From: Psychrobacter glacincola
Lineage (GTDB): Bacteria > Pseudomonadota > Gammaproteobacteria > Pseudomonadales > Moraxellaceae
Assembly (NCBI RefSeq): GCF_904846215.1
Contig: NZ_CAJGZK010000007.1
Coordinates: forward strand, 62,001-126,000
DNA length: 64,000 bases
Direction of reading: 5' to 3'
Shown: piece after piece, positions 35,090 through 38,492 of the stretch
Numbering within the stretch: the first letter of the stretch is position 1
Layout of the letters: each line of letters opens with the position of its first letter
The notes under the pieces: model-generated
What the model saw: only the letters and a program-made list of their open reading frames with translations
What the model was told of the DNA's origin: nothing
Databases searched by the model: none
Position numbers and translations under genes: made by a program

Positions 35090-35719
35090 ATGTCGCATAT
35101 TACTTTACCAGAATTACCGTACGCAAAAGACGCATTAGAGCCACATATCAGTGCCGAGACGTTAGAATATCATCATGACAAGCATCACAATGCATACGTG
35201 ACTAAGTTAAATGAATTGCTACCTGGTTCTGGTCTAGAAGACAAAACCTTGCCAGAAATCATCGAAGCCACGGCGAAAGATGACAGCAAGCAAGGCATGT
35301 TTAACCAAGCAGCCCAAGTATGGAACCACACCTTCTATTGGAACTGCATGACGCCAGACAATGGCGGCGGCGAACCTACTGGCGATCTAAAAGGCAAAAT
35401 CGAAGAAGATTTCGGTAGCTATGATAAGTTCCGTGAAGAGTTCAAAAACGCAGCATTGACTCAGTTCGGTTCAGGTTGGGCATGGCTAGTCGCTGATAAA
35501 GTCGGTGGCAAACTGTCTATCGCCAAAACAGCTAACGCTGATACGCCACTTGCACATGACCAAATCGCGGTATTGACTTGTGACGTGTGGGAACATGCGT
35601 ACTACATCGATTATCGTAACCGTCGTCCTGATTACGTCGACACGTTCCTAGACAAACTAGTGAACTGGGACTATGCAAACGCTAAATATAAAGGTCAAGA
35701 TGCTGGTGTTGAAGAGTAA
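35090..35719 (+). CDS. sodB: Superoxide dismutase (Fe)
   Basis: Dismutates superoxide in the cytoplasm. 209 residues. Metal ligands are in the expected places: His in LEYHHDKHHNAYV, His in VWNHTFYWNCM, and Asp/His in DVWEHAYYIDYRNRRPDY. AAQVWNHTFYWNCM and GSGWAWLV point to the iron-type enzyme. AAGGATAAAAAAATT precedes the ATG. Single gene with its own terminator. Confidence 0.96.
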   Translation: MSHITLPELPYAKDALEPHISAETLEYHHDKHHNAYVTKLNELLPGSGLEDKTLPEIIEATAKDDSKQGMFNQAAQVWNHTFYWNCMTPDNGGGEPTGDLKGKIEEDFGSYDKFREEFKNAALTQFGSGWAWLVADKVGGKLSIAKTANADTPLAHDQIAVLTCDVWEHAYYIDYRNRRPDYVDTFLDKLVNWDYANAKYKGQDAGVEE

Positions 35720-35746: not shown

Positions 35747-35778
35747 AAAAAAGGACGCTGAGAGGCGTCCTTTTTTTT
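35747..35778 (+). terminator. Rho-independent terminator for sodB
   Basis: Stem AAGGACGC / GCGTCCTT, loop TGAGAG, followed by eight T. Confidence 0.92.
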
Positions 35779-35869
35779 GGTTTCATTTTCTTCTTCAAAA
35801 TTTGATATAAATCAAATTCTATAAGTAAGTGTTATCAGATAAAATTGTTATATGAGAATTTAATAGGCA

Positions 35870-36385
35870 TCAACATTTAATTACTTTTAGTTGTATCTCT
35901 ATATCTTTCAGACCATCAAATACTTGAGAAAATAAATTTAATGTAATAGAAGGTGAGTCTACGTGTCTCGTAACTCCTTTAAGATGAGTGTGAGCTTCCG
36001 CATTGCGTATAATCTTGAGAGTACCAAGGGCTGATAAAAGGAGAGCATTTTTCGATGCATCAAGTTTTTTTTCTAATCTTTCAATATTCATGAAACCAAT
36101 TACAGATGAGAGCATTTTAATAAAATGGTTTTTATATTCAAATCCGTAGTTCCGGTCTATAATTTGTCTTTTTATATGAGTTTTAGTTGCTTGTAACTTT
36201 AACAAACGATTTGCACACATCTGGATAATGTTATCCATAGATTCTTCAATCCACCCACAGAGCTCAAGAATTGCAAGTTTCGAATAATACAACTTTCTTT
36301 TATGGCTATTAGTGCCGAAATATAGTTTATTTAATTGTTTGAGGTTATTTTCTATATATTTACGCACAATCATAATTAGATACAC
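35870..36385 (-). CDS. HEPN-like protein, putative RNase partner of DUF262 protein
   Basis: 171 residues from a GTG at 36385 that overlaps the stop of the upstream DUF262 gene by one base (TAGTG); ATG 36373 is an alternative. All-helical, basic. It carries RNAEAH (Arg127...His132), the R-x4-H motif of HEPN ribonucleases, within a helix IIRNAEAHTHLKG, with the polar residue after Arg that active HEPN enzymes keep. An earlier helix (ILELCGWIEESMDNI) resembles the first HEPN helices. The overlap implies coupled translation with the DUF262 protein. HEPN/DUF262-type pairs occur in defence and toxin-antitoxin contexts; which role this pair has is inference. Confidence 0.65.
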   Translation of the reverse strand: MYLIMIVRKYIENNLKQLNKLYFGTNSHKRKLYYSKLAILELCGWIEESMDNIIQMCANRLLKLQATKTHIKRQIIDRNYGFEYKNHFIKMLSSVIGFMNIERLEKKLDASKNALLLSALGTLKIIRNAEAHTHLKGVTRHVDSPSITLNLFSQVFDGLKDIEIQLKVIKC

Positions 36386-37485
36386 TATGAAAAAATTTGT
36401 ATGGATGCTGATATGCGAGCTTGAACTTTCTCTTTTTTAGCAACACCATCATTGAGGTACTCGGTCGCTAGTGAAGAGTGTTCTCGAAGCTTTCTAAAAC
36501 GTAATTTCAGATCTTCTTCTGATAATTTTTCAAGTTTATCTATGTTTTGAGATATACCTGCTAAAAGAGCCTCTAATATTGAAACACCTATTCTTTCATC
36601 TTCATTAAGAATTTTTGTTGCTATTAACCCTACAGTTCTAGTAAAGTTTATGTTTTTACTGTTTAAGAAAGACTCAGTAGGGTTTCTATTAACTCTCATG
36701 TATTCATTCAAAAACTTAGATAAAATACCTTTATATGTAGATAGATTATCGTTGAACGCAAAATGTCTTAATATCATTTCAACATTTTTAAATCTTGAGT
36801 CATCTTTATCTTTTAACCTATTTATTGATCTCCAATGAGTATTTTCGTTTAACTCTTTTAAAAGAGTGTTAAAGGTACCACTAAATATACAGTTTCTTAT
36901 CTCTTGGTTGTTTAATTTAGTACCTCCAGTGTTAAGTCTATGAAATATAGTGAACAAATATTCCATATGTGATTTTTTACTATGGTCACATCTTAAAACG
37001 GTTACTGGTAGAGTCAGGTTCTCTAGTCTTTGATAAAGGATATGATCAACACTACTCTCATCTTTGAAGTGAGAGACTTTCTTACCAGCTAATTTCTTAT
37101 CAATATCATCAAGATCAGATAAGCGCCATGTTTTATCTTCTAAAAAACGAATAATGGCAGTCATTCGCTGTAGACCATCTATCACTTGCCATTTTTGGGT
37201 CTTAAAATCTAAACTAAAACACATGCTTGGTATAGGCAGCTGCTTTATTAATGAGTCAATAAATCTTGTTTGAGCGGGTGGGCTCCAAACTGAATTCCTT
37301 TGAAAGTCAGGTGTTATATTCAGTATGCCTTTGTCATACATTCGATATAAATCTGCACAAGAGCGCAGTTCATTATAGGCAATTATATCTGATGGTGGTT
37401 GCTGATCAGATTCATCTTCATAGAATAAGTTTTCTTCTTCTTTTTCTAATTCTAGTTCTAGATTTATCACTTCATCTATACTCAT
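36385..37485 (-). CDS. DUF262 (GmrS/ParB-like N-terminal) protein
   Basis: 366 residues. DUF262 hallmarks: DFQRNSVW (60-67) in place of the usual P-x-Y/F-Q-R...W, VIDGLQRMTAIIRFLE (101-116, the D-G-x-Q-R motif of the ParB/Srx-like fold) and FHRLNTGGTKLNNQEIRNCI (181-200). DUF262 proteins use nucleotide hydrolysis in GmrSD-type restriction. Here the C-terminal DUF1524 HNH nuclease is missing; the C-terminal half is helical and Lys/Glu/Leu-rich. The overlapping HEPN-like gene may supply the nuclease. Base composition is visibly AT-richer than neighbours and codons such as AGA, ATA and TTA are common, suggesting acquisition. Confidence 0.8.
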   Translation of the reverse strand: MSIDEVINLELELEKEEENLFYEDESDQQPPSDIIAYNELRSCADLYRMYDKGILNITPDFQRNSVWSPPAQTRFIDSLIKQLPIPSMCFSLDFKTQKWQVIDGLQRMTAIIRFLEDKTWRLSDLDDIDKKLAGKKVSHFKDESSVDHILYQRLENLTLPVTVLRCDHSKKSHMEYLFTIFHRLNTGGTKLNNQEIRNCIFSGTFNTLLKELNENTHWRSINRLKDKDDSRFKNVEMILRHFAFNDNLSTYKGILSKFLNEYMRVNRNPTESFLNSKNINFTRTVGLIATKILNEDERIGVSILEALLAGISQNIDKLEKLSEEDLKLRFRKLREHSSLATEYLNDGVAKKEKVQARISASIQIFS

Positions 37486-37560
37486 AAGTCATCTCAATTA
37501 AATTATAGCGTAAAGGTTTTGAATATATATAACCCACATTGTAATAGTATTTAGCTTTTG

Positions 37561-37590
37561 CATCTTAAAATTAATTTTTTCTTTAAGATG
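37561..37590. terminator. AT-rich hairpin after DUF72 gene
   Basis: Stem CATCTTAAA / TTTAAGATG, 12-base loop, between the DUF72 stop and the start of the DUF262 gene. It may end the DUF72 transcript or lie in the promoter region of the DUF262-HEPN pair; weak as a terminator. Confidence 0.4.
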
Positions 37591-37600
37591 GGTATTAATT

Positions 37601-38419
37601 TTACAACACCTCAAATCCAAACCTCCCCAACGCCTCCCTGAGCATCGCAATATTATAATATGCATGCGCATTGACCGTATTTTGAAAGAAGATATATAGC
37701 GTATCAAAATGCTGACGTTGATTAGCAATCGCTTGCGCCCAGTCCTGCATCTCTGTCTCGCTATAGCGATAATCATGACGATCAGCGGCGCTCATCGCAT
37801 CCCACCAGTTTAGATTATTGCCATGCATACGCAGATAGCCAGTGCGCTCGGTAAATATCAACCTTGACGGCGGTAAACCGCTGACTTTGGGATAATCGAC
37901 GCTGCACCAAATCAAACCTTGCTCGATAAAGCTGTCGACCACTTGCGGCGTATGCCAGCCGTTATGACGAAACTCGACGGCGAGTGGATAATCTTGAAAC
38001 CAACTGACAAGGTTTGCGAGATATAGACGATGCTCACGGGTACGGTCAAAGCCGTGCGGAAATTGTAATAATAGTGGCGCGAGCGCATTGGCTTCGATAA
38101 GTGGCGTGAGCGCAGTCAGGAATGCTTGGGCGTGATCGCTAGTGCCTTTACGTGCATGAGTAAAGTCTTGATGCAGCTTGACGGCAAATTTAAGCTGGCT
38201 ATCGGTTTGCACATAGGCTTTATTGACCATACCCGCAAAGGCTTTTTGTCCGATAGGCGCATAAAAAGTGCTATTGATTTCGACCGCGCCATAGTGTTTG
38301 GCGTACTCCCGTAAGAAGTCCGTTTTTTTGGTGCCAGTGGGATACAGCGTACCAAGCAAGTCGGTATCGCTATAGCCACCAGTGCCTAGATAAATACGCG
38401 GAGTAGGGGCACTATCCAT
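37601..38419 (-). CDS. DUF72 family protein
   Basis: 272 residues from ATG 38419 (AAGGG eight bases upstream; the frame opens with a GTG at 38428 that sits on the ribosome site). TIM-barrel-like DUF72 with YLGTGGYSD at the start, YGAVEINSTFYAPIGQ, FAVKLHQDFTH, LLLQFPHGFDR, VEFRHNGWH, YLRMHGNN and IFFQNTVNAHAYYNIAML. Biochemical function unknown. About 70 bases after ispA on the same strand. Confidence 0.92.
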   Translation of the reverse strand: MDSAPTPRIYLGTGGYSDTDLLGTLYPTGTKKTDFLREYAKHYGAVEINSTFYAPIGQKAFAGMVNKAYVQTDSQLKFAVKLHQDFTHARKGTSDHAQAFLTALTPLIEANALAPLLLQFPHGFDRTREHRLYLANLVSWFQDYPLAVEFRHNGWHTPQVVDSFIEQGLIWCSVDYPKVSGLPPSRLIFTERTGYLRMHGNNLNWWDAMSAADRHDYRYSETEMQDWAQAIANQRQHFDTLYIFFQNTVNAHAYYNIAMLREALGRFGFEVL

Positions 38420-38492
38420 GTTGACCACCCTTTGTTATTTTTACTGATTAAAAGATTGAGCGTGTTGTTTCTAAGCTTAATGCTTCTTTTGG

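Follow-up and report, generated by a model that had tools for sequence, protein, structure and literature searches.

Two-gene and single-chain immunity systems that contain a DUF262 protein or a small HEPN protein provide the closest described relatives of the locus analysed here. PD-T4-2 was reported by Vassallo et al. (2022) as a functionally selected anti-T4 locus, whose deletion from the native host E. coli ECOR65 raised T4 plaquing (PMC9519451, in excerpt); its domains are given in a review as DUF262 and HEPN (PMC10952713, in excerpt). According to the same review excerpt, the partner of DUF262 in Menshen is a predicted OLD nuclease (PMC10952713), and the excerpted 2013 survey of Anantharaman et al. 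places the RiboL-PSP-HEPN and MAE_28990 HEPN families in operons with ParB-fold genes (PMC3710099). In GmrSD and BrxU, the DUF262 domain is joined in one chain to a DUF1524/HNH nuclease domain. MntA-HepT pairs a small HEPN protein with a nucleotide-handling partner, a minimal nucleotidyltransferase. For PD-T4-2 itself, no published mechanism was found in the literature searched (mostly without full text), and the excerpted text of PMC9519451 holds no statement on whether its mode is abortive infection.

Identity of the gene pair

The window, i.e. the whole 64,000-nucleotide stretch of Psychrobacter glacincola DNA under analysis, contains two adjacent genes whose products match the PADLOC models of PD-T4-2 over nearly their full length. 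Protein A matches PDLC04027 (PD-T4-2_A) with 537.4 bits over residues 10-365, and protein B matches PDLC04028 (PD-T4-2_B) with 202.6 bits over residues 5-169. The gene order, A then B, adjacent and on the same strand, is that of PD-T4-2, and the scores equal those of an E. coli pair (538 and 213 bits) whose annotation names a DUF262 and a HEPN domain protein. By these matches the pair belongs to PD-T4-2, here at a new location in Psychrobacter, and, since PD-T4-2 was published in 2022, it is a further copy of a known system rather than a new one. The defence role proposed in the first-pass annotation, which was made from the sequence alone, is thereby borne out at the level of the family, and we infer that this copy, too, would act against phages.

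A search by DNA similarity detected the E. coli pair, at 46% query coverage, in 17 out of 5,426 E. coli genomes; it may or may not be the pair of ECOR65 itself. Window A is 60% and window B 43% identical to it, and the two A proteins are sisters in the phylogenetic tree (97/96 support). The four inspected genomes of these 17 (L094, L251-L253) show the succession of a phage polarity suppression gene, a small ORF, the pair, and an integrase at ssrA, which we take to be the layout of a P4-like satellite. Because the E. coli copies lie between the phage polarity suppression gene and the integrase at ssrA, PD-T4-2 seems to travel in P4-like satellites as well. The Psychrobacter pair, in contrast, lies between sodB and a DUF72-type gene, without an integrase.

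The other described systems share parts of this architecture. With GmrSD and BrxU, window A has in common the DUF262 domain and the ParB/Srx-type motifs; residues 36-366 of A align with residues 1-419 of BrxU, which comprises most of A and leaves out the C-terminal part of BrxU, and since the rmsd is as large as 15-16 Å the match is domain-wise and not rigid. Yet no DUF1524/HNH nuclease domain was found in the window pair, which has a separate HEPN-like protein instead; on this ground it is distinct from classical GmrSD, as had been supposed. Menshen, a system of several genes, likewise includes a DUF262 protein: the PADLOC Nsn models, presumably those of Menshen, give 191 bits for NsnA against window A and a weak match for NsnC against B (E 0.002). 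Both scores are far below those of the PD-T4-2 models, and in place of an OLD/ATPase partner the only gene coupled to window A is B, for which Pfam shows no P-loop family. The operons of RiboL-PSP-HEPN and MAE_28990 with ParB-fold genes are alike in kind, and the Pfam models of these families match many other DUF262-coupled partners; window B, however, scores below the Pfam cut-off and has PADLOC models of its own (PD-T4-2_B). Solved structures of MntA-HepT are among the best that the fold searches of B returned; the partner differs, being a DUF262 protein in the window pair.

Organization and boundaries of the locus

Both genes are intact ORFs on the minus strand. Gene A (PD-T4-2_A, 36385-37485) encodes a DUF262 (ParB/Srx-like) protein of 366 aa, and gene B (PD-T4-2_B, 35870-36373) a HEPN-like protein of 167 aa, counted from the conserved ATG. 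The first-pass annotation had placed both frames correctly and had let them overlap by one base, which needs a GTG start at 36385 and a product of 171 aa (35870-36385). The conserved start is the ATG at 36373, 12 nt downstream of this GTG and 11 nt after the stop codon of A. Because the N-terminus M-I is common to most relatives, and because B begins at the ATG in the 93%-identical relative from Psychrobacter sp. 4Bb (L002/L042), the ATG is the more likely start, and the overlap is probably not real.

To the left, the pair is flanked by sodB (superoxide dismutase; 35090-35719, plus strand) and to the right by the DUF72-type gene (37601-38428, minus strand); both names are those of the first-pass annotation, and each gene is present in 103 of the 105 genomes of the genus. 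Gene sodB is convergent with the pair. Between them, a terminator with an A-tract, a GC stem and a T-tract (35747-35776; terminator scan, plus strand) forms the left edge of the slot; judged by eye, it could act for either strand. A similar hairpin was seen by eye 3' of sodB in most of 96 genomes. Comparison with 96 other genomes of the genus shows left-hand homology ending at 35775-35806, just past the sodB terminator, in 83 of them. To the right, 77 genomes have a match, and in 66 of these homology resumes at 37588-37613, near the stop codon of DUF72. These edges agree with the boundaries 35779-37600 assigned beforehand to the stretch that A and B occupy here. Its GC content is 0.305, compared to 0.427 for the 64-kb window; among 1,244 sliding stretches of the same size, the lowest value (0.306) belongs to stretches overlapping it, so that the supposed islet is indeed the 1.8 kb with the highest AT content in the window.

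A variable cargo site between sodB and DUF72

In Psychrobacter, the interval between sodB and DUF72 is a site of variable cargo (L155-L250), often a single AT-rich gene or a pair of genes on the same strand as DUF72. Its length ranges from 104 to 5,946 bp (SD 1,316) in the 97 genomes that carry both genes on one contig, and reaches at least 1 kb in 69 of them. The other eight comprise five with the genes on different contigs, including the 93%-identical relative, and three without one or both genes. The intervals to either side, towards genes which we take to be rdgB and ispA, vary less in length: the SD is 70 for the rdgB-sodB interval, with none out of 96 reaching 1 kb, and 343 for the DUF72-ispA interval, with 3 out of 86 reaching 1 kb; in the remaining 11 genomes ispA was matched at a great distance or on a different contig.

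An AT-rich minus-strand cargo ORF occupies the slot in 69 of the 97 genomes, distributed over 42 families, and 77 out of 86 low-GC slot ORFs run with DUF72. These ORFs were called mechanically (at least 90 aa), the families result from our own clustering, and 19 core or IS families were excluded by hand; moreover, the genomes of the genus are related, so the slot counts are not independent events. At least 20 of the 97 genomes hold a family whose representative matches PADLOC at 1e-5 or better. Among these families are PD-T7-4, PD-T7-3, RTasSLATT, SoFic, ThsB/TIR and PDC, the ThsB/TIR match coming from a pooled PADLOC scan and having been assigned to its protein by us. Two counts speak against reading the site as a defence slot: 16 out of 30 cargo representatives have any hit in Pfam at E <= 0.01, of which 14 exceed the curated cut-off, and 8 out of 20 representatives scanned singly in PADLOC match at 1e-5, some of them weakly. 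Many cargo families match nothing. The slot may be a simple source of candidate single-gene defence systems in Psychrobacter, many of them without a known family.

Some individual intervals deserve mention. A few hold IS-like genes. In G060 (L214:129-1908), a ParA-type ATPase gene lies beside a gene from the family of the RelA/SpoT-domain protein of L203. The slot of G057 (L229:1193-2775) contains a distant second DUF262 gene paired with a RiboL-PSP-HEPN gene; the two overlap by one base, and the R-x4-H motif reads RHAVVH. Beside this pair, and in addition to the normal copy, the G057 interval has a copy of the sodB terminator (L229:1125-1167). A further copy is located in G072, 1.9 kb after sodB (L248:1935-1965). 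These extra copies might mark past insertion edges.

Within the genus, close copies of A are rare: two of the 105 genomes have one, that of the window included. In the second, the 93%-identical relative, A is open and DUF72 lies beside it, and the end of the contig cuts B. Out of the 103 genomes without a close copy, 26 have a distant DUF262 gene. This distribution, together with the variability of the locus across the genus, favours the horizontal gain that base composition and position had suggested. A finds matches in 747 plasmid records and 61 phage records, none of which reaches 60% identity and most of which are partial; a tblastn search of B against plasmids returned nothing. In scans of viral contigs, A alone found no relative and B found one contig.

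Sequence and predicted structure of A and B

The sole strong Pfam match of A is PF03235 (GmrSD_N; E 1.2e-24, 88 bits against a cut-off of 33.2). As supposed from the sequence, A is without an HNH nuclease: neither HNH nor DUF1524 is listed by Pfam at E <= 1 for A, nor for B. The ParB/Srx-like motifs claimed for it are all in place, i.e. PDFQR (59-63), IDGLQR (102-107) and FHRLN (181-185), and the invariant columns of a 48-row alignment include those of PxFQR, DGxQR, RLN and QEIRN. The AlphaFold model (pLDDT 91.1) has a C-terminal helical region. Its top solved fold match is BrxU (Foldseek E 6.8e-4), followed by ParB, and a second fold search has SspE and sulfiredoxin among its matches. A sequence search of the PDB with A gave no match, and a profile search a weak one to BrxU (E 0.0024). 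NCBIfam lists no model for A or B; in PHROGs, only A was matched, to families without an assigned function. By its predicted fold, A would be a nucleotide-binding sensor resembling the front part of BrxU and SspE, without their HNH nuclease. NTPase activity may be assumed, but use of NTP is not certain because IDGLQR departs at one position from the GmrS consensus DGQQR. We also considered DGLQR as a hallmark of HEPN-coupled DUF262 proteins and rejected it, as within the genus the coupled proteins vary at this motif (DGLQR, DGQQR and others).

Protein B was described in the first-pass annotation as a small HEPN-like protein with R-x4-H. The dyad is present (R-NAEA-H; Arg123/His128 from the ATG, Arg127/His132 from the GTG), and R123 and H128 occur in all 56 rows of a 57-row alignment that reach this point. 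Over 52 rows, nine columns are invariant: K32, E37, G40, W41, E43, D47, G93, R123 and H128. Mean column identity is 34% for B (52 rows) compared to 51% for A (48 rows).

The fold of B is more difficult to assign. The AlphaFold model consists of six helices (pLDDT 93.8), and HepT/HEPN proteins lead the lists of both fold searches with weak matches (best Foldseek E 0.31). In VIA, seven of the top 12 rows are titled HEPN, HepS or HpeT and four more read as the same kind; the Z score of about 8 is below the value of about 13 given by the tool as typical of helical models, and unrelated helical proteins follow close behind. The Pfam HEPN model PF18735 scores 14.1 bits, below its gathering score of 28.4. 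With hhalign, the R-x4-H of B and the RNxxAH of further HEPN proteins coupled to DUF262 line up in register (41 columns, E 1.8e-4, probability 48%), whereas the control against an ATPase alignment gave no match (E 0.28, probability 0.2%). Sequence searches of the PDB with B, as with the other HEPN partners, yielded nothing convincing. We call B HEPN-like because its fold matches are led by HepT/HEPN proteins but weak, its dyad is in register, and its Pfam score is below threshold; a HEPN fold is likely but not conclusive. In keeping with its motif, B would be a HEPN endoribonuclease with RNA as its target.

Coupling of A and B across bacteria

The relatives were collected in 56 loci, consisting of 51 genome loci, one viral contig, three further genomes and the E. 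coli pair. Most were found via B; one of the three further-genome loci was found through A. Co-occurrence of the pair elsewhere, the lack of which had been named as a refutation, is nearly complete: 54 of the 56 loci have A immediately 5' of B and on its strand, with gaps of -11 to +12 nt. The two exceptions are L060, with B without A, and L082, with a broken B without A. The loci span Pseudomonadota, Bacteroidota, Acidobacteriota, Cyanobacteriota, Planctomycetota, Nitrospirota and others. In some of the loci a gene is broken over several frames (A in L047 and L065, B in L080 and L082), and the Microcystis loci L064, L073 and L080 look like near duplicates. Comparison of the two proteins over 50 pairs shows that their evolution is correlated: the pairwise distances of A and B give r = 0.816, a value reached in none of 2,000 permutations.

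Proposed mechanism and alternative explanations

Our preferred reading, to which we assign a probability of roughly 60%, is that the pair is a PD-T4-2 copy in an exchangeable slot, in which A, a DUF262 nucleotide sensor, restrains the HEPN RNase B and releases it on a phage cue. According to this model, A would hold B in check in the healthy cell and would sense a phage feature through binding or hydrolysis of NTP. The leading guess for the trigger is modified DNA, by analogy with GmrSD, BrxU and Dazbog. Once released, B would cut RNA, standing as a separate protein in place of the in-chain nuclease, and phage replication would stop, either by direct inhibition or by shutdown of the infected cell. 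The model also supposes that A and B would form a complex. The invariant residues in the nucleotide-site motifs of A and the nine columns of B would serve as a direct list for point mutants.

A plain toxin-antitoxin system is the alternative that we take most seriously, unlikely as we consider it. A would then be a mere antitoxin that binds or modifies B, and shut-off of A synthesis by the phage would free B without dedicated sensing. The coupling of two genes with a small HEPN-like partner resembles MntA-HepT, whose HEPN toxins rank with the top fold matches of B, and 4 of the 21 systems of the 2022 screen, which the excerpt does not name, have a toxin-like component (PMC9519451, in excerpt). 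A is, however, large and conserved (51% compared to 34% for B), and its nucleotide-site motifs and BrxU/SspE-like folds exceed what an antitoxin needs. Roles could also be reversed, with A as a ParB/Srx-type effector that binds or nicks phage DNA and B as an accessory HEPN protein binding RNA or protein. DNA nicking is reported for proteins of the ParB/Srx superfamily (cited in the excerpted text of PMC12839542), and the excerpted 2013 survey names a ParB nuclease as the operonic partner of a HEPN family (PMC3710099). We regard this arrangement as improbable, given that Pfam finds no HNH or other nuclease domain in A and that the R and H of B are kept in 56 out of 56 rows, as expected of an active nuclease.

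One might further ask whether the pair has any present role in defence, or whether it is a degraded or neutral passenger. An AT-rich stretch with a close copy in two of 105 genomes (its own included), in a slot of changing cargo, would fit such an origin; but both frames are open, the family-invariant residues are kept, and the 93%-identical relative keeps A open, all of which makes a mere passenger very improbable.

DUF262 proteins with different partners

Among the loci listed for short DUF262 genes of the genus, which were chosen by similarity to A, 12 out of 25 are directly followed by a gene with a C-terminal RNxxxH, L004 with RHxxxH included. In order to avoid the selection bias of this set, we scanned 206 genomes class-wide with PF03235 and obtained 90 matches in 61 genomes. 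The resulting set comprises 85 regions, leaving out that of the window and four with open frames shorter than 300 aa; ORFs of up to 470 aa were considered short. A coupled downstream gene with the HEPN motif is present for 9 of the 21 short DUF262 genes, one of the nine being a PD-T4-2 pair already used as a seed, compared to 1 of the 64 long ones (L312; Fisher p 6e-6), and shuffled partners carry the motif at 1.2%. The strict motif DHIxP, tried as a test for HNH in the long proteins, was discarded as too strict, since it matched 5 out of 64; hence the contrast between long and short forms rests on ORF length and not on a proven HNH domain.

The 12 short genes without a HEPN-motif partner are composed of five with P-loop or AAA-like partners (by sequence), one beside a MurJ-like gene, four for which no coupled gene was found, and two with other partners. 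In a pool of 32 coupled partners (17 short class-wide, one long, and 14 from genus loci picked for having a coupled partner), PF18737 and PF18735, both Pfam models of HEPN, find 17 apiece and AAA-type models 7; which partner of the short set matched which family is partly our own reading. DUF262 proteins would thus work with alternative effectors.

Taken together with the cargo site, these associations lead us to a broader and more tentative proposal, which we hold at slightly less than even odds. DUF262 would be an exchangeable sensor or NTPase of immunity, whose output differs from lineage to lineage: in GmrSD/BrxU an in-chain HNH DNase, in PD-T4-2 and many relatives a HEPN RNase acting in trans, and in Menshen-like systems a separate ATPase of the OLD/AAA type. 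Psychrobacter would trade such modules as single small cassettes via one terminator-bounded sodB-DUF72 slot, mostly without an integrase of their own. The class-wide coupling of short DUF262 with HEPN suggests that type IV restriction has a family of relatives armed with an RNase, testable by one assay. Literature searches on a Psychrobacter hotspot, sodB islands, NsnA/NsnC, HepS and Menshen returned nothing of use, and as far as the literature searched extends (mostly without full text), both the short-DUF262/HEPN rule and the genus hotspot are undescribed, apart from the remark of 2013 on HEPN-ParB operons.

Two further arrangements were seen in the course of these comparisons. Six aligned loci (L259, L260, L263, L264, L267 and L011) combine a short DUF262 gene with OLD/AAA-like ATPase genes and resemble Menshen. 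Others have DUF262 genes in tandem, with a frame of 491-531 aa followed by one of 675-686 aa: L318 and L326 (contig C39 of the genome under study), L309/L328, and L312/L327. At the L312 locus, a HEPN-motif gene is third.
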